A stretch of DNA of 64,000 nucleotides from NCBI RefSeq assembly GCF_000194135.1, contig NC_015318.1, positions 1 to 64,000 on the forward strand, read 5' to 3'. Positions 5,960 to 62,108 of the stretch are shown here, one piece after another. The notes below the pieces were generated by a model. It ran no database searches. It saw nothing but the letters and a program-made list of their open reading frames with translations, and was not told the DNA's origin. The position numbers and the translations under genes were made by a program. Numbering within the stretch: position 1 is the stretch's first letter; every line of letters begins with the position of its first letter. Source of the stretch: Hippea maritima DSM 10411. GTDB taxonomy: Bacteria > Campylobacterota_A > Desulfurellia > Desulfurellales > Hippeaceae.

Positions 5960-8398
5960 ATGAAAGACCTGTTTTCCGATAAGAATATCTTTCCTGTTGA
6001 TATAAAAGATACGATGCAGCAGTCCTATCTGGACTACTCGATGAGTGTTATAGTGGGTAGGGCTATACCCGATGCGAGGGATGGGTTAAAGCCGGTTCAT
6101 AGAAGGATCCTGTATGCTATGAAGGAGCTTAATTTAGAACACAATAAACCCTATAAAAAGAGTGCAAGGGTTGTCGGTGATGTTATAGGTAAATACCATC
6201 CCCACGGCGATATGGCTGTTTATGATGCCCTTGTTAGGATGAGTCAAGATTTCTCTATGCGATATCCTTTGATAGATGGGCAGGGAAACTTTGGATCTTT
6301 GGATGGTGATAGCCCTGCTGCTATGAGATATACAGAGGTCAGGCTGTCTAAAATCGCAGAGGAGATGCTTAAGGATTTAGATAAAAACAGCGTGGATTTT
6401 GTACCCAATTATGATGATTCACTTAAAGAGCCATCGGTTTTGCCGACATTTATACCCAATCTGCTTATGAACGGCACAGATGGTATAGCTGTTGGTTTTG
6501 CAACGAAGATTCCACCCAATAACTTGGCTGAGATTATAGATGCATGTTTGGCTTATCTTGATAAGGATGGTGAAATATCGACAGATGAGATTTTAAATTA
6601 TATAAAAGGTCCTGATTTCCCAACAGGCGGTATCTGTTTCGATATAAAATCCATAAAAGAGGCTTATAAAAAGGGTATAGGCAAAATCACCTTAAGGGCG
6701 AAGGTAAAAGAGGAGAAGATTAAAAACAGGCAGGCGCTTGTGGTTTATGAGATACCGTATCAGGTAAATAAAGCCCTGCTTTTGCAGAGTATTGCCCAGC
6801 TGGTTAAGGATAAAAAGGTTGAGGGTATAGCTGATCTGCGCGATGAGTCCAACAAAGAGGGTGTCAGGATTGTTATAGAGATAAAAAAGGATGAGCAGCC
6901 CAAGGTTATCTTGAATAAGCTATTTAAATACACCAATCTTCAGACAACATTTGGTGTAAACATGATGGCTTTGGTTGGTAATACGCCAAGGCTTTTAAAT
7001 ATCAAGGATGCTATAGGTGTTTTTGTTGAACATAGAATAGATGTTGTAAAGAGGCGCACATCGTTTTTACTCTCAAAAGCCAAAGACAGAGCCCACATAC
7101 TTGAAGGTCTTTTGATAACCCTGGATAACATAGATGAGGTTGTGGCTATTATAAAATCATCCCAATCCACTCAGGAGGCCAGGTCGAGGTTAAAAGAGAG
7201 GTTTAAATTAAGCGACAGGCAGACGCAGGCTATTTTGGATATGAAGCTTGCAAGATTGGTTGCTTTGGAAAAGCAGAAATTAATCGATGAATACAATCAG
7301 GTTTTGAAAGACATAGAATATTACGAGAGTATTTTAAAAGATAGATCGGTTTTGAAGGGTGTTATTAAGGATGAGCTTGTTTATGTTAAACAAACCTATG
7401 CCGATGAAAGGAAAACTCAGATATTGGATAGTATTGTTGATATAGGCATAGAGGATGTCATTAAGGATGAGCAGCTGATCATCACATTTTCAAAGAAGGG
7501 TTATGTAAAGGCTGTGCCTTTGGATGTATATTCAACTCAACATAGGGGAGGTAAAGGCAGGATGGCTGCAACATTCTCCGATAATGATTACATAACGGAT
7601 ATTTTCTTAACAAACAGCCTCAATACACTTTTGTGCTTTACCAATTTAGGTAGGGTTTATTCGGTTAAGGCTTACAATATACCTAAACAATCACCATCGG
7701 CCAAGGGCAGGCCTATTGTAAATATCCTAAACCTGCAGCCACAGGAGTTTGTTAAAACGATTGTTCCTATAAGCGAAGCAGATAGCCTTTTCTTTGCAAC
7801 AGCAGCTGGTACGGTTAAACGCTCTTCGTTTAGGCACTTTGAGAACATACCATCAAATGGCAAAATAGCTATTAGGTTAAATGAACAGGATTCGTTGGTG
7901 AGCGTGTTTAGTGTGGCAGAAGGGGACGAGGTGATTATAACAACCAGACGGGGTATGTGTGTCAGGTTTGATTCAGATAGCGTGAGGGATATGGGAAGGG
8001 CTGCAGCTGGTGTTAGGGGTATAAATTTATCAGAGGGTGATAGTGTTGTAAGTGCGTTTAACTTCAATCAAGACAAACACACCAAACTCATAGTTGTATC
8101 CCAAACCGGGCTTGGTAAACTATTAAGGGTTTCAGATATAAGAAAGGTCAACAGAGGTGCTAAGGGTGTTAGGTGTATAAAGTTAAAAGAGAATGATAGT
8201 GTTGCTGGAAGCCTGTCTTTAAAAGATACAGGCGATGTTATTGTTGTAACGAAGAACGGTAAAATGATAAAGATGGATGCAGACTCTATCAATGTTTTCA
8301 GTAGGGCGGCTAGAGGGGTTAAGCTTATAAACTTGGATGAAGCCGATAGTGTTGTAAGTATTGTTGTAGCGGGGAGTGAGGATGAATATAAAGCTTAA
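5960..8398 (+). CDS. gyrA: DNA gyrase subunit A
   Basis: DNA cleavage and rejoining subunit of gyrase. The 812 residues hold the N-terminal breakage-reunion domain, with the catalytic tyrosine in [10 protein letters not shown], and a C-terminal six-bladed beta-pinwheel. The GyrA box reads QHRGGKGRM (consensus QRRGGKG), supporting gyrase rather than ParC. It lies 10 nt after gyrB, forming a gyrB-gyrA operon. The 3' end overlaps the polyprenyl synthase start by 17 nt. Repeated blade motifs such as AAGVRGINL and [11 protein letters not shown] are visible in the C-terminal third. Confidence 0.97.
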
Positions 8399-57595: not shown

Positions 57596-57877
57596 ATGTT
57601 ACAACAAAAAGCAGTTATCAAGAACATGGATCACTTAGGACTAATAGCTGGTATGATAGACGAACTAAAGATAGCAGAAACCATAGATGATGAAATACCA
57701 TCATCAAGCAAATCAAAGAACCTAAGCTATGGCGAAGCAACAAAGGCAATGATCCTTAACGGTCTTGGTTATGTCAACAAGCAACTCTACCTAACTCCTC
57801 TCTTCTTCAAAGACAAACCACTAAAGAGATTATTCGGAAGGGATGTCTCCTTTCTTAAAAAAATCGTTTTCTGTTAA
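57596..57877 (+). pseudogene. IS1634-type transposase, N-terminal fragment
   Basis: 93 codons match the N-terminal DUF4277 region of IS1634-family transposases: NMDHLGLIAGMIDELKIAET, YGEATKAMILNGLGYVN and PLFFKDKPLKRLFGRDV. Complete transposases are about 450-550 residues. The match ends near 57850 and the remaining codons (FLKKIVFC) look like foreign sequence before the stop, so the rest was deleted. No second end or terminal repeat could be identified. Confidence 0.8.
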
Positions 57878-57972
57878 TTTATATATTTTTACTGTCAAAT
57901 CTTTAGCTTTTTGCCAAACATTCAACTCTCTAAAATTACCCATCTAACTCTCTTTAAATCAATTTCTCAAAA

Positions 57973-58035
57973 CCTAACACCTAATACCAAATACCTAACA
58001 CTTAGCACTTAACACTTAATTCTTAGCACTTAGCA
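57973..58035. repeat. Heptamer array 1 (nine CYTARYA-like units)
   Basis: Nine back-to-back 7-bp units on the + strand: CCTAACA, CCTAATA, CCAAATA, CCTAACA, CTTAGCA, CTTAACA, CTTAATT, CTTAGCA, CTTAGCA. The array ends at the base next to the stop codon of the DUF2061-kinase gene. Spacing is exact although units vary. There is no gene between 57878 and 58035. Confidence 0.9.
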
Positions 58036-58764
58036 CTATTTAATCAACCTCTTTATTACATACTCATAGACTTTATCAGCTAACTCTTCTGCTGAATATC
58101 TTTCTGTATCCAAAATAAGCTCTGGATTTTTAGGCTCCTCGTAAGGTTCGTGAACTCCGGTCAAATTCGCTATTTCTCCTTTTTTTGCTTTTTCATAAAC
58201 TCCTTTATAATCTCTTTGCATGCATGTTGATAAGTTTGCTTTTACATAAATCTCAACAAAATTTTTAGTATTATTTCTGATAAAGTTTCTTATCTCTTCA
58301 TAAGGAGTAACAAATGAAGCTATTACTGAGATTGAATTGGATTGTAATGTTTTTATCAAAAACGCTACTCTTTTAAGATGTAAGATTCTTTCATCCTTTG
58401 TATATCCTATTTCAGGGATCATCTCCCTGATATCTTTACTATCAAGTCTCTGAAGTAAAAGATGATCATACTTTTTAAGTTTTTTATAAACCAAATCCGC
58501 AATAGTAGTTTTACCAGACAACGGCAGTCCTGTAAACCACAAAACGAATGGTTCTATTTTCTTTTTCCCATATTTTATATTGCTCCAAATGCGCTCATGT
58601 ACAAAGTATATAGCTATCTTTGTGATACTCTCAACTACTCCTGCAGCTATTGCCAAATCAAGCCTACCAAAAAAGGCAAAAACAATTACGGTCGTTGTGG
58701 CAGTAGCAAAAATTCTCCAAGAAATTGCTTTTAATAATGAGCGTCGCTTGGTTTCTATAAACAT
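58036..58764 (-). CDS. DUF2061 membrane domain fused to APS-kinase-like domain
   Basis: Two-domain protein, 242 residues. Residues about 5-62 form a DUF2061 domain with two membrane helices (ISWRIFATATTTVIVFAF; AGVVESITKIAIYFVHERIW). Residues about 70-242 resemble adenylylsulfate kinase CysC: P-loop FTGLPLSGKTT, then GVYEKAKKGEIANLTGVHEPYE and a PELILDT ending. The substrate-binding DGDNIR block reads DSKDIRE, so kinase specificity may differ. A likely role is membrane-tethered sulfate activation near a transporter or sulfotransferase, but this is inference. Both flanks are heptamer arrays. Confidence 0.82.
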   Translation of the reverse strand: MFIETKRRSLLKAISWRIFATATTTVIVFAFFGRLDLAIAAGVVESITKIAIYFVHERIWSNIKYGKKKIEPFVLWFTGLPLSGKTTIADLVYKKLKKYDHLLLQRLDSKDIREMIPEIGYTKDERILHLKRVAFLIKTLQSNSISVIASFVTPYEEIRNFIRNNTKNFVEIYVKANLSTCMQRDYKGVYEKAKKGEIANLTGVHEPYEEPKNPELILDTERYSAEELADKVYEYVIKRLIK

Positions 58765-58770
58765 AATTAG

Positions 58771-58861
58771 TTTTAAGTATTAAGCGTTAAGTGCTAAGTG
58801 TCAAGCATGAAGTAATAAGCATTAAGCGTTAAGTTCTTAATACTTAGTACTTAGTGCTTAA
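58771..58861. repeat. Heptamer array 2 (thirteen units, motif reverses polarity)
   Basis: Thirteen uninterrupted 7-bp units fill the gap between two genes. The first nine follow NNTTAAG (TTTTAAG, TATTAAG, CGTTAAG, TGCTAAG, TGTCAAG, CATGAAG, TAATAAG, CATTAAG, CGTTAAG); the last four follow NNCTTAR (TTCTTAA, TACTTAG, TACTTAG, TGCTTAA). The two halves are partly complementary and could pair as a hairpin. It serves as the upstream region of the DUF2061-kinase gene. Confidence 0.92.
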
Positions 58862-58863
58862 TT

Positions 58864-59202
58864 TTATTTATAATTATTTTTTAGTCCTGTTAACATTTTC
58901 AATAATTCATCAAGTTCCTCAATCCATTTTAAACCTATTTGCTTTTCTATATAAGTTATCTCTATGCCTATATATATCTGCGTCATCAATTCTGCAGCTG
59001 ATCCTTTTGCAATCTCAATAAATCTAATTTTTTCTTTGTCAGACTCTTTCTCCATTCCTTCTGCAATATTAGAAGCTATTGACAAGCTACTTCTTGTTAT
59101 CTGATCTTTAAAGCCAAAATCCTTTAACTCTTTAAAATAATTGTATATATTAACTGAAAGTCTACAACTCCTTTTCCATACATCCAAATTCTCACACTTC
59201 AT
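58864..59202 (-). CDS. Four-helix-bundle protein (23S rRNA IVS type)
   Basis: About 112 residues from ATG 59202 (MKCENLDVWKRS), with AAGTAGG just upstream. The sequence LDVWKRSCRLSVNIYNYF, RSSLSIASNIAEGMEKES and IAKGSAAELMTQIYIG is diagnostic of the four-helix-bundle proteins often encoded in intervening sequences of 23S rRNA genes and related to the Avd protein of diversity-generating retroelements. Function is unknown. A GTG 21 nt upstream lies in the repeat array and would give a longer start. It is flanked on both sides by CTTAA-type heptamer arrays, with no rRNA nearby. Confidence 0.88.
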   Translation of the reverse strand: MKCENLDVWKRSCRLSVNIYNYFKELKDFGFKDQITRSSLSIASNIAEGMEKESDKEKIRFIEIAKGSAAELMTQIYIGIEITYIEKQIGLKWIEELDELLKMLTGLKNNYK

Positions 59203-59204
59203 CC

Positions 59205-59248
59205 TACTTACCCTACTTAACACTTAATACTTAATACTTAGCACTTAA
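59205..59248. repeat. Heptamer array 3 (CACTTAA/TACTTAA)
   Basis: Five exact 7-bp units at 59214-59248 (TACTTAA, CACTTAA, TACTTAA, TACTTAG, CACTTAA) with related bases at 59205-59213. It lies directly upstream of the four-helix-bundle gene and shares its motif with the last four units of array 2 on the other side of that gene. Confidence 0.85.
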
Positions 59249-59289
59249 AACTATGAAGTATGGATTAAGCAGATTTTCTTTATTGTATT

Positions 59290-60198
59290 TTAAAGGTATT
59301 GGGTATTGGGTGTTGGGTGTTGGGCATCCAATTGAAAATTTTGGATTTTGGATTCTGGATTTTGGATTAAGTTTGAACTTTGAACATTGAACATTGAACT
59401 ATCGTATATATATATTTCCCCTCCGGCTTCTTTAACAATGGCATGTGCTGCTGCAGTGTCCCACTCCATCGTAGGTCCAAGGCGTGGATAAATGTCAGCT
59501 TTACCCTCAGCTACTAAACAAATTTTCAGACTACTTCCAATAGAAGTAGTGATTAGTGAAGAGTGATTAGTGAAGAGTGAAGATTCTTTTAAAGCCTCTA
59601 TAAAATTTTGAGTTTCTTGATTCATATGCGACCTACTTGCAACTACAATTAAATCTTTATCATCTCTTTCAACAGGTAACTTAACCGAATTTTTCAAAAT
59701 TTCATTCATTCTCCTTTCACTGTTCACTGTTTCACTATTCACTGATTTATATGCTCCCAATCCTTTTGCTGCATAATATAATGTATTAATCGCTGGTGCA
59801 TATACAACACCAAGAACAGGTGAATCTTTATGAATTAAAGCAATATTAACCGTAAATTCTCCATTCTTTTTAATAAATTCCTTTGTACCATCCAAAGGAT
59901 CAACAAGCCAGAATATGTCCCAGTTTTTTCTATCATCATAGGGAATTTCTTTATTTTCTTCACTGAGGATGGGGATTCGTGTAAGTGTAGGTGTGGGTGT
60001 GTGTCTAGGTGCTGGTGTGAGTTGTTTAAGACCATCGCAAATTATCTCATTGGATAATTTGTCAGCCTCCGTAAGTGGACTTTTGTCATCTTTGTATTTA
60101 ACTGAAAAATCTTTATGATATATTTCCATTATCTTTCCACCTGCTTTCACTGCTGTGAATATTACTTGAGCCAATAAATCTGATAAAAATTCTTTCAT
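59290..60198 (-). CDS. cysQ: CysQ-type 3'(2'),5'-bisphosphate nucleotidase with repeat-coded inserts
   Basis: Inositol-monophosphatase-fold enzyme that removes PAP. Metal and catalytic motifs are intact: KDDKSPLTEAD (36-46), ILSEEN (77-82), WLVDPLDGTKEF (97-108), TSIGSSLKICLVAEG (218-232) and WDTAAAH (246-252). Compared with usual CysQ it carries extra residues at about 63-74 (Thr/Pro-rich), 152-164 (SVNSETVNSERRM) and 206-218 (SSLFTNHSSLITT), and a C-terminal tail at 267-302. Each extra segment coincides with a tandem array in the DNA. 302 residues. It is 9 nt after cysC, so likely co-transcribed. Activity is plausible because inserts fall between motifs. Confidence 0.88.
   Translation of the reverse strand: MKEFLSDLLAQVIFTAVKAGGKIMEIYHKDFSVKYKDDKSPLTEADKLSNEIICDGLKQLTPAPRHTPTPTLTRIPILSEENKEIPYDDRKNWDIFWLVDPLDGTKEFIKKNGEFTVNIALIHKDSPVLGVVYAPAINTLYYAAKGLGAYKSVNSETVNSERRMNEILKNSVKLPVERDDKDLIVVASRSHMNQETQNFIEALKESSLFTNHSSLITTSIGSSLKICLVAEGKADIYPRLGPTMEWDTAAAHAIVKEAGGEIYIYDSSMFNVQSSNLIQNPESKIQNFQLDAQHPTPNTQYL
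59295..59322. repeat. Heptamer array 4 (GGTRTTG) at the 3' end of cysQ
   Basis: Four 7-bp units: GGTATTG, GGTATTG, GGTGTTG, GGTGTTG, followed by GGCATCC. On the minus strand it encodes the last residues of CysQ (HPTPNTQYL). Confidence 0.88.
59339..59399. repeat. Heptamer array 5 (TTTTGGA then WTTGAAC)
   Basis: Four units TTTTGGA, TTTTGGA, TTCTGGA, TTTTGGA (59339-59366), a 5-nt joint TTAAG, then four units TTTGAAC, TTTGAAC, ATTGAAC, ATTGAAC (59372-59399). It encodes CysQ residues of about 268-286 on the minus strand (MFNVQSSNLIQNPESKIQN). Confidence 0.9.
59546..59580. repeat. Heptamer array 6 (NNAGTGA) inside cysQ
   Basis: Five exact units GTAGTGA, TTAGTGA, AGAGTGA, TTAGTGA, AGAGTGA. They encode the SSLFTNHSSLITT insert of CysQ just before the conserved SIGSSLK motif. 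Confidence 0.9.
59715..59743. repeat. Heptamer array 7 (NTTCACT) inside cysQ
   Basis: Units TTTCACT, GTTCACT, GTTTCACT (8 bp) and ATTCACT. On the minus strand this is the AGTGAAN family and encodes the SVNSETVNSE insert of CysQ. It resembles array 6 in reverse orientation. Confidence 0.85.
59979..60020. repeat. Hexamer array (GTGTRG) inside cysQ
   Basis: Seven 6-bp units: GTGTAA, GTGTAG, GTGTGG, GTGTGT, GTCTAG, GTGCTG, GTGTGA. The period is 6 rather than 7, so it keeps frame and encodes a Thr/Pro-rich insert (about residues 61-74) between LKQL and IPILSEE of CysQ. Confidence 0.88.
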
Positions 60199-60207
60199 AA
60201 AATTTCC

Positions 60208-60876
60208 TCAAATAATTTTTTTCGCTTTTAAAAATATAACTATTTTTTCAACACATTCATTTACAGACAATTTATCCGTTTTTAAATGTATTTCAGGACT
60301 TAGCGGTGGCTCATATGGTGAATCTATACCGGTGAACTCTTTAATCTCACCTTTTCTTGCTTTTTTATACAGCCCCTTTGGATCTCGCTGCTCACAAACC
60401 TCTATCGGAGTATCTACAAAGACCTCTATGAATTCATCACTTCTTACAAGGCTTCTTGCATAATTTCTTTCTTCTCTAAAGGGTGAAATAAACGCTGTAA
60501 TCACTATAAGTCCTGCATCCACAAAAAGTTTTGCAACTTCAGAAATTCTGCGTATATTTTCTTTCCTATCTTCGATAGAAAAACCAAGATCTTTGTTTAA
60601 ACCATGCCTTATATTGTCACCATCCAGAAGATATGTATGTACATGCATTCTATTTAATTTTTCTTCAAGAGCATTTGCAATTGTGGATTTACCAGAGCCG
60701 CTAAGACCTGTAAGCCAGATGATGCAAGGTTTGTGGCCTTTGATTTTGCTGCGATCAGATTTGGTAATTTTGTGAGGATGGTACACTATATTAAAATTTT
60801 GGATTTTGGATTTATTTAATAATTTTGAATTTTGGATGTTGTATTTTGGATTTTTGTTATTATTTTGATTTTTCAT
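60208..60876 (-). CDS. cysC: Adenylyl-sulfate kinase with repeat-coded N-terminus
   Basis: Phosphorylates APS to PAPS. P-loop [18 protein letters not shown] (about 54-71), [29 protein letters not shown] and [20 protein letters not shown] are canonical. The family start normally lies near [14 protein letters not shown] (29-42); here 28 Asn/Lys-rich residues precede it, encoded by a TTTTGGA-type array, and the ATG is within or before that array. 222 residues. Unlike the DUF2061 fusion this copy retains DGDNIR and should be active. It overlaps the broken four-helix-bundle gene by 17 nt and precedes cysQ by 9 nt. Confidence 0.93.
60797..60857. repeat. Heptamer array 8 (TTTTGGA) at the 5' end of cysC
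   Basis: TTTTGGA, TTTTGGA, a 12-nt interruption (60811-60822), TTTTGAA, TTTTGGA, TGTTGTA, TTTTGGA, TTTTTGT. The unit is the same as in array 5, 1.4 kb away. It encodes about residues 7-27 of CysC. Confidence 0.87.
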
Positions 60877-61102
60877 TTTTTAGCCTTTCTCGAAGTGTTA
60901 TTATAATCTTTCTTAGTATATTTATAATTGAATTAATTTCTTCAAAAAGATATTTTTTATTTTCATAATTATCGAGAAATTTGCTATCATTCAATAGTCT
61001 AAGCCAGTATAGTGTTTCTCTTGCTTCTTTACTAGCAATACTCAGCTTTGAAATAAAGTCTTTACTTGATTGTGGAGCAAGACAGGGGTCGCATCTCAAC
61101 AT
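60860..61102 (-). pseudogene. Four-helix-bundle protein, 5'-truncated
   Basis: The frame codes the C-terminal two thirds of a four-helix-bundle (IVS-type) protein: SSKDFISKLSIASKEARETL and YWLRLLNDSKFL are typical. Its first 10 or so codons (LRCDPC...) come from the end of the neighbouring transposon, and the genuine N-terminal helix (xDVWKRS type) is missing. The junction is near 61083. The 3' end overlaps the cysC start, next to heptamer array 8. Confidence 0.8.
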
Positions 61103-61112
61103 TTGACATTCA
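61084..61112. repeat. Left inverted end of the Y1 element
   Basis: AGGGGTCGC followed by ATCTCAACATTTGACATTCA; contains an imperfect 7-bp hairpin (61088-61107). It includes the transposase stop codon. Confidence 0.85.
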
Positions 61113-62108
61113 TTTCCTCTCCATCTCTTTTGTCGTTTTTTCTACCATTCCTTGGGTTATTTTATCTTTTCTCATTTCTTTTTCAAATCTTTTTACAGTT
61201 TGAGATACAGCAGAATAATCGATATTAAACAGTTCACCAATTTCTTTCAATGATAAAGGTGTGTATTTTTTTAGAAGATATAGGGTTAATTTTCGGTAAA
61301 TATTGCCTTTGATTTTTTTAAAGATTATGTTTTGTTTTATATTAAACTGAGTTGATACAGCATTAATCACACGTTCTTTTGGTAGTAAGTTTTCACCTTT
61401 TATATGACTTATTTCCCTGTTTGAACTCAATTTGGATATCTTCTCTTTTATCTTTTCTATAAATTTTTCACTACCTAAAGCTAAATTCTTATAACTTTTT
61501 TCAAGGGGATTTTTAAGATCTGCATTCTCTATAACATACTTCATATATTGTTTTTGAGCCTGTTCTTCATTATCTGAAAAATTGCTTAATATAAATGACA
61601 CATCAAGTCTTTTTACGAGAGGGCTTTTTTTGCCGATATAATCTAAGAAACTTGAAAAATGATAGTTATCCGGATCATCAACCATACCAGCTCTTGCAGG
61701 ATTTAGATGAATGTAGGCTGATAAAACTAATGCATAGCTATCCGCATCAACAACAATGGATTTATATCTACCCTGAAATATAGAGCCTACAAGTTTATAT
61801 TTTGCCCTAAACCAGTTGGCATAAGATGTATTGAGATAATGCATGCCCTCTGAGATGTTTGCAGATGGCGTTTTTATAAACAGATGATAGTGGTTATCCA
61901 TAAGGCAGTAGGCGTAACATACAAAAGAGTATTTTTCAAAGGTTTCATTCATTTTGTCTATAAAGACATATTTATCCTTATCAGAATAAAAGATATTTTC
62001 TCTTCTAATGCCTCTTGCGGTTATATGGTAGAATGCATTCTCAAAAGAAATTCTCAAAGGTCGTGCTATAACAGAGGGCAAAGTATCATAAGATTGAGTG
62101 AATGTCAA
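61110..62108 (-). CDS. REP-associated tyrosine (Y1, HUH) transposase with DnaA-like C-terminus
   Basis: 332 residues. The HUH domain shows ARPLRISFENAFYHITARG, the metal-binding NHYHLFIKTP (HxH) and the nucleophile tyrosine in NTSYANWFRAKY, then GSIFQGRYKS. The C-terminal 100 residues resemble the DnaA DNA-binding helix-turn-helix (INAVSTQFNI, PLSLKEIGELFNIDYSAVSQ), a known fusion in this group. The start is unclear: TTG 62108 lies in the right hairpin, and the usual family start Met before ARPLRI is an ATA (Ile) here. The gene may use a weak TTG, or be inactive. Confidence 0.87.
   Translation of the reverse strand: MTFTQSYDTLPSVIARPLRISFENAFYHITARGIRRENIFYSDKDKYVFIDKMNETFEKYSFVCYAYCLMDNHYHLFIKTPSANISEGMHYLNTSYANWFRAKYKLVGSIFQGRYKSIVVDADSYALVLSAYIHLNPARAGMVDDPDNYHFSSFLDYIGKKSPLVKRLDVSFILSNFSDNEEQAQKQYMKYVIENADLKNPLEKSYKNLALGSEKFIEKIKEKISKLSSNREISHIKGENLLPKERVINAVSTQFNIKQNIIFKKIKGNIYRKLTLYLLKKYTPLSLKEIGELFNIDYSAVSQTVKRFEKEMRKDKITQGMVEKTTKEMERK

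Follow-up and report, generated by a model that had tools for sequence, protein, structure and literature searches.

Period-7 repeat arrays in cysQ and around S23 genes of Hippea maritima: candidate IVS-like elements outside rRNA

Results

The cysQ gene and its repeat arrays

The genes and arrays found at the cysQ locus in the window, the 64,000-nucleotide stretch of Hippea maritima DNA that was analyzed, are collected in Table 1. The cysQ ORF matched Pfam Inositol_P at 2e-53 and the TIGR01331 equivalog at 281.1 bits, above its cut-off of 228.8, and its nearest PDB entry was 3b8b. The metal and phosphate motifs SEE, DPLDGT and MEWD were all present in the homolog alignment, with S79 E80 E81, D100 P101 D103 G104 T105 and E245 W246 D247 invariant.

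Table 1 Genes and repeat arrays around cysQ, in window positions
Feature	Position	Strand	Basis or remark
Heptamer array beside the DUF2061-APS kinase gene	57969..58037	.	array scan
DUF2061-APS kinase fusion gene	58036..58764	-	profile match
Left arm of S23 element, heptamer arrays TTAAGTA/TTAAGCG	58769..58862	.	array scan, flank pairing
23S_rRNA_IVP / S23 four-helix-bundle gene (PF05635)	58864..59223	-	profile match
Right arm of S23 element, inverted array ACTTAAC/ACTTAAT	59215..59252	.	array scan, flank pairing
Displaced native CysQ C-terminus PLKYNKENLLNPYFIV	59251..59300 (approximate ends)	-	out of frame with the ORF
cysQ ORF, 302 aa, PAP phosphatase	59290..60198	-	several repeat arrays; native C-terminus displaced
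Three abutting heptamer arrays GGTATTG, ATTTTGG, TTTGAAC	59295..59400	.	replace and frameshift the CysQ C-terminus
Heptamer array GTGATTA/GTGAAGA	59543..59583	.	residues 206-218
Array TTCACTA/TTCACTG	59715..59744	.	residues ~152-161; inverted partner of 59543-59583
Weak period-6 array	59979..60004	.	insertion, residues ~61-72
cysC (APS kinase)	60208..60876	-	N-terminal extension encoded by arrays 60796-60880
Truncated second PF05635 gene	60860..61102	-	profile 53-104

At a period-7 score cut of 14, four arrays were found in the cysQ ORF, compared with one in 1000 codon-shuffled ORFs. The individual period-7 arrays of the tail lie at 59295-59324, 59338-59368 and 59369-59400, while the array at 59715-59744 falls below the cut and was detected by TRF. 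The score of the period-6 array was equalled in 3 of 1000 codon shuffles. A chance origin of the cysQ arrays is excluded. The arrays that the original prediction had placed inside cysQ are therefore real, with period 7 and a weak period 6, but not every one of them marks an insertion.

Insertions were called by alignment to 80 homologs. Residues ~61-72 were found solely in the H. maritima protein, where the site spans 18 residues compared to 5-11 in the homologs, and a 5-residue insertion at 206-210 brings the second site to 17 residues where 12 are usual. An ancestral origin of these two loops was ruled out by their absence from the 80 aligned homologs, and relatives sharing the loops without repeats, which the original prediction had named as its refutation, failed to appear. 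Residues 152-164 lie within a loop of naturally variable length (4 to 26 residues in the family, 22 in H. maritima), and because of this normal variation an insertion is not established there.

CysQ homologs terminate in YNKENLLNPxFxV, a motif that is absent in frame from the H. maritima protein. The DNA just after the cysQ stop encodes this native C-terminal motif, as PLKYNKENLLNPYFIV, in another reading frame, which indicates that the tail arrays shift the frame and displace or replace the native C-terminus. As read from the DNA, the tail array is predicted to truncate the protein, and an in-frame extension was ruled out on the basis of the motif lying in another frame after the stop. What had been taken for four independent, tolerated, in-frame insertions thus comprises one case of ordinary loop variation, one frameshifting truncation and, as described below, two arrays that form an inverted pair. 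Mapping of the inserts onto a predicted structure (mean pLDDT 82.6) placed residues 61-75 in a low-confidence loop with a helix on one side and a strand on the other, whereas the tail, residues 269-302, was left unmodelled with pLDDT below 50. The model would fit inserts at loops and ends.

The arrays at 59715-59744 and 59543-59583 are complementary in inverted orientation and enclose 130 nt of native cysQ, and since native sequence separates them, the pair is not accounted for by an element that simply inserted. In a Sulfurovum homolog (L034), roughly these two CysQ loops also hold arrays, built from a different unit and likewise opposite in orientation. Overall, period-7 arrays built from other units are present in six CysQ homologs from other phyla (Campylobacterota, Bacteroidetes, Nitrospirae and Pontiellaceae), for the most part in the same loops; other periods yielded at most one. 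The suggestion that the cysQ locus has been targeted repeatedly is supported by these homologs.

An S23 gene between complementary arrays

The S23 ORF of the window matched PF05635 at 113 bits (cut-off 33.8) and also matched the solved proteins 2gsc and 2rld. Together with its two arms it folds with a terminal stem, and RNA folding of single cases, namely this element and the cysQ array pair, was only moderately unusual (z about -2.7). Over its whole length, arms included, the window element could be aligned at 79% to an element at a different locus of genome G001.

Period-7 arrays were carried by 48 of 89 PF05635 loci in other genomes, about half of the loci having none at the threshold used, compared with 2 of 33 ParE toxin loci, most of which come from those genomes, and 0 of 29 phosphatase-family loci. 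Array density fell from 2.9-3.8/kb within 100 bp of the PF05635 gene to 0.1-0.4/kb at distances above 150 bp. Irrespective of gene orientation, left arrays are G-rich (29 of 30) and right arrays C-rich (30 of 35). When each left flank was compared with the reverse-complemented right flank of the same locus, 51 of 82 loci exceeded the 99th percentile of mismatched flanks (p=3.6e-42), compared to 10 of 82 in the direct orientation.

The array units at these loci are mostly 7 bp, with 6, 8, 9 or 12 at some loci, and their sequence differs from locus to locus. A fixed unit sequence was rejected, as only the loose consensus NRRTNNT emerged, which beats all 60 within-unit shuffles but is weak. In a set of five homologous elements, the best partner of a left arm was found at its own locus or, for the close relatives G000 and G001, at the other's locus, with no pairing across the remaining ones; at L216, arm pairing was not detectable. 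Pairing within a locus while units differ between species indicates that the arms change sequence together.

A search of the PF05635 loci for 23S rRNA gave no match, and an Rfam search of L151, L146, L139 and L145 gave no hit. The G001 copies, which lie near contig ends, were considered as true 23S IVSs and rejected, as rRNA was looked for and none was found. Membership of S23 in a defense system was also rejected, with no PADLOC match.

Array islands in H. maritima and its congeners

The array scan covered stretches amounting to about half of the H. maritima genome (1,694,430 bp), plus the window. Within this half, period-7 arrays scoring at least 14 were confined to two islands, at window 57969-60854 and at about 1,677,784-1,689,209 of the genome, apart from a single weak, AT-rich array some 10 kb away from the second island. 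All 4 PF05635 genes of the genome fall in these two islands. Sulfate-activation genes are present in both (cysC and cysQ; cysN and cysD), the second island also holds dTDP-rhamnose genes, and the islands contain transposases and an integrase. Since arrays are also borne by cysN, by cysC, by intergenic spacers and, most of all, by the PF05635 genes of the islands, cysQ is not the special target it had appeared to be. The array island of the window is bordered by a truncated transposase-like ORF (57596-57877), and the gene that joins a DUF2061 membrane domain to an APS kinase domain has counterparts in the corresponding operon of congeners (L288, L289).

In H. maritima, arrays split cysN into two ORFs. 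The congeners G003 and G005 have the same sulfate-activation operon without cysQ. All three CysN sites that bear arrays in H. maritima also bear them there, but array length differs greatly and the units differ in part, and the ORF stays open; in CysN of Arcobacter, Sulfurimonas and others these sites are short loops. Their CysC, too, has its arrays where H. maritima has them, again with differing units, periods and lengths, and the operon spacer that holds an S23 gene is not the same in G003 as in G005. These same-site differences and the shifted S23 genes indicate that turnover continues inside the genus. They also bear on the possibility that the arrays reached Hippea ready-made, within foreign DNA of a donor rich in arrays, and have been inert there since. 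Such an import would agree with our failure to find cysQ in any of the 8 congeners searched and with the transposases and integrase of the islands; however, the differences seen in G003 and G005 argue against inert fossils, and we consider this origin unlikely. An inverted array pair without S23 was seen by eye at L289:9264-9498, as would be expected of gene-less derivatives.

Each island carries a 332-residue RAYT-like gene (Y1 transposase with a DnaA-like C-terminal domain), at window 61110-62108 and L132:6632-7630, and the two copies are apparently identical. The two copies could be the trace of a rearrangement in which a single ancestral sulfate-activation island became divided. These genes, together with the S23 matches to 2gsc and 2rld, could point to a retroelement or a RAYT-type process as the maker of the arrays, the S23 fold being related to that of the Avd partner of diversity-generating retroelements. 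Nevertheless, a RAYT gene stood beside 0 of 89 PF05635 loci, and no PF00078 match was found in many genomes with both S23 and arrays (G001, G003, G005, G011, G040 and G065). The search for a reverse transcriptase, made with diversity-generating retroelements in mind, returned only a sub-cut-off fragment in G000 and none in several array-bearing congeners. Neither RAYT nor reverse transcriptase is therefore supported as the agent, and a process of this type is highly improbable.

Association of arrays with PF05635 across genomes

Among 80 genomes with a cysQ homolog, period-7 arrays at the cysQ locus occurred in 16 of 43 genomes with PF05635 anywhere and in 0 of 37 without it (p=9.8e-6), a correlational result from a set that includes draft genomes and in which the PF05635-less lineages come mostly from few clades. 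After dropping three cysQ loci that contain an S23 gene, the count was 13 of 40 (p=6.5e-5), and permutation within phylum-level groups gave p=0.002. Searches of the phyla around G040 and G042 yielded few genomes. The association of PF05635 with arrays at cysQ loci suggests a trans role for S23, or for a linked factor, in array formation.

Ordinary replication slippage offers another account, in which 7-bp microsatellites grow wherever selection is relaxed, as in a decaying foreign island, and S23 is unconnected. The breakage of cysN and cysQ by arrays in H. maritima indicates relaxed selection, and in many bacteria no class of long repeats is commoner than heptamers, for which a polymerase-footprint idea exists (quoted in PMC4679880). 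However, slippage alone would not place the strong period-7 arrays of the scanned half of the genome in two S23 islands, cluster arrays within 100 bp of S23 genes, make the flanks inverted complements or leave all 37 S23-less genomes without arrays at cysQ loci. We regard it as an improbable origin, although slippage may extend existing arrays.

Discussion

To our knowledge, the heptamer repeats that are common in bacteria have no accepted origin, and we know of no function of S23 or 'four helix bundle' genes outside rRNA, these genes having been studied mainly inside rRNA genes. The two appear to be linked, and each can thereby be put to a direct test. In 23S rRNA, an intervening sequence (IVS) likewise consists of an S23 ORF flanked by complementary ends, and the islands are therefore read as hosting IVS-like elements outside rRNA. 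On balance we favor the explanation that the cysQ arrays are probably dispersed products of such elements and belong to an S23-tied class of arrays driven by S23 or a co-inherited factor.

The core unit of this proposed process would be an S23 gene between two inverted-complementary arrays, which could fold into one long hairpin as RNA or single-stranded DNA. The S23 protein, or something inherited with it, would promote the making and dispersal of arrays, with the repeat period set by the array-making process. That complementary arms change together suggests that one arm templates the other; foldback copying of this kind could keep the arms complementary while their units change. H. maritima may have received a cysQ-bearing sulfate-activation island on which the process then acted. 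Within genes, arrays would persist where they encode surface loops or stop-free gene ends, as at CysQ 61-72 and 206-218, and also under relaxed selection; the CysQ tail and the third CysN site, both broken by arrays, would be examples of the latter.

The closest known system is the IVS of 23S rRNA, such as that of Coxiella burnetii, which shares the S23/PF05635 ORF, complementary termini forming a long stem, and tandem heptamers on the 5' side (PMC4990558). In Coxiella, GACAGAT heptamers of strain-variable copy number lie upstream of the S23 ORF, and the 28-bp terminal stem is cut by RNase III (PMC4990558). Unlike 23S IVSs, the elements described here lie between protein genes, outside rRNA and not in a 23S helix; their units vary by locus, and gene-less arrays occur in spacers and inside ORFs. 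The S23 gene of Coxiella is presumed to be unexpressed (PMC4990558), and this would count against the S23 protein having a role.

The TAACTGA repeats of Beggiatoaceae, cyanobacteria and Bacteroidetes are likewise mostly intergenic 7-bp tandem arrays scattered over phyla, but they were described with one dominant unit and with no linked gene or inverted pairing (PMC4679880), whereas the units found here are numerous, form inverted pairs and accompany a gene family. According to PMC9879509, Borg tandem repeats also evolve fast and create new disordered protein stretches, but they reside on archaeal extrachromosomal elements. In the open-access full texts searched, heptamer repeats and IVSs were treated separately and joined only in the Coxiella paper (PMC4990558). 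The class of 6-9-base arrays flanking S23 genes, which is widespread across bacterial phyla, is apparently undescribed.

Small repeats are also tolerated in frame within protein genes in the case of the Rickettsia palindromic elements, which resemble the cysQ arrays in this respect. Those elements, however, are conserved palindromes of about 100-150 bp with shared sequence, in contrast to the locus-specific heptamer arrays of cysQ. For the Borg repeats, we know of no link to S23.

A broader reading is possible, though we hold it only tentatively. PF05635/S23 could be an unrecognized, phylum-crossing element that makes its own terminal inverted arrays of short, mostly 7-nt repeats by locus-templated synthesis and spreads gene-less arrays through the genome, by which peptide segments of host proteins are added or broken, rRNA IVSs being only its best-known landing site. 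The arrays account for one source of odd peptide runs (such as NPKSKIQNSK or HPTPNTQ) and broken genes in annotated genomes, and they suggest a route by which enzymes acquire new loops.

Two further loci were observed. In a Sulfurovum genome, heptamer arrays lie in open genes for GDP-fucose synthase and mannose-1-phosphate guanylyltransferase (L294:1292-1323 and 6883-6916). At L291 (G053:C4:214000-222000), near-identical 34-bp GAAGACA arrays occur at least 6 times in 8 kb, in both orientations, resembling a dispersed repeat family.
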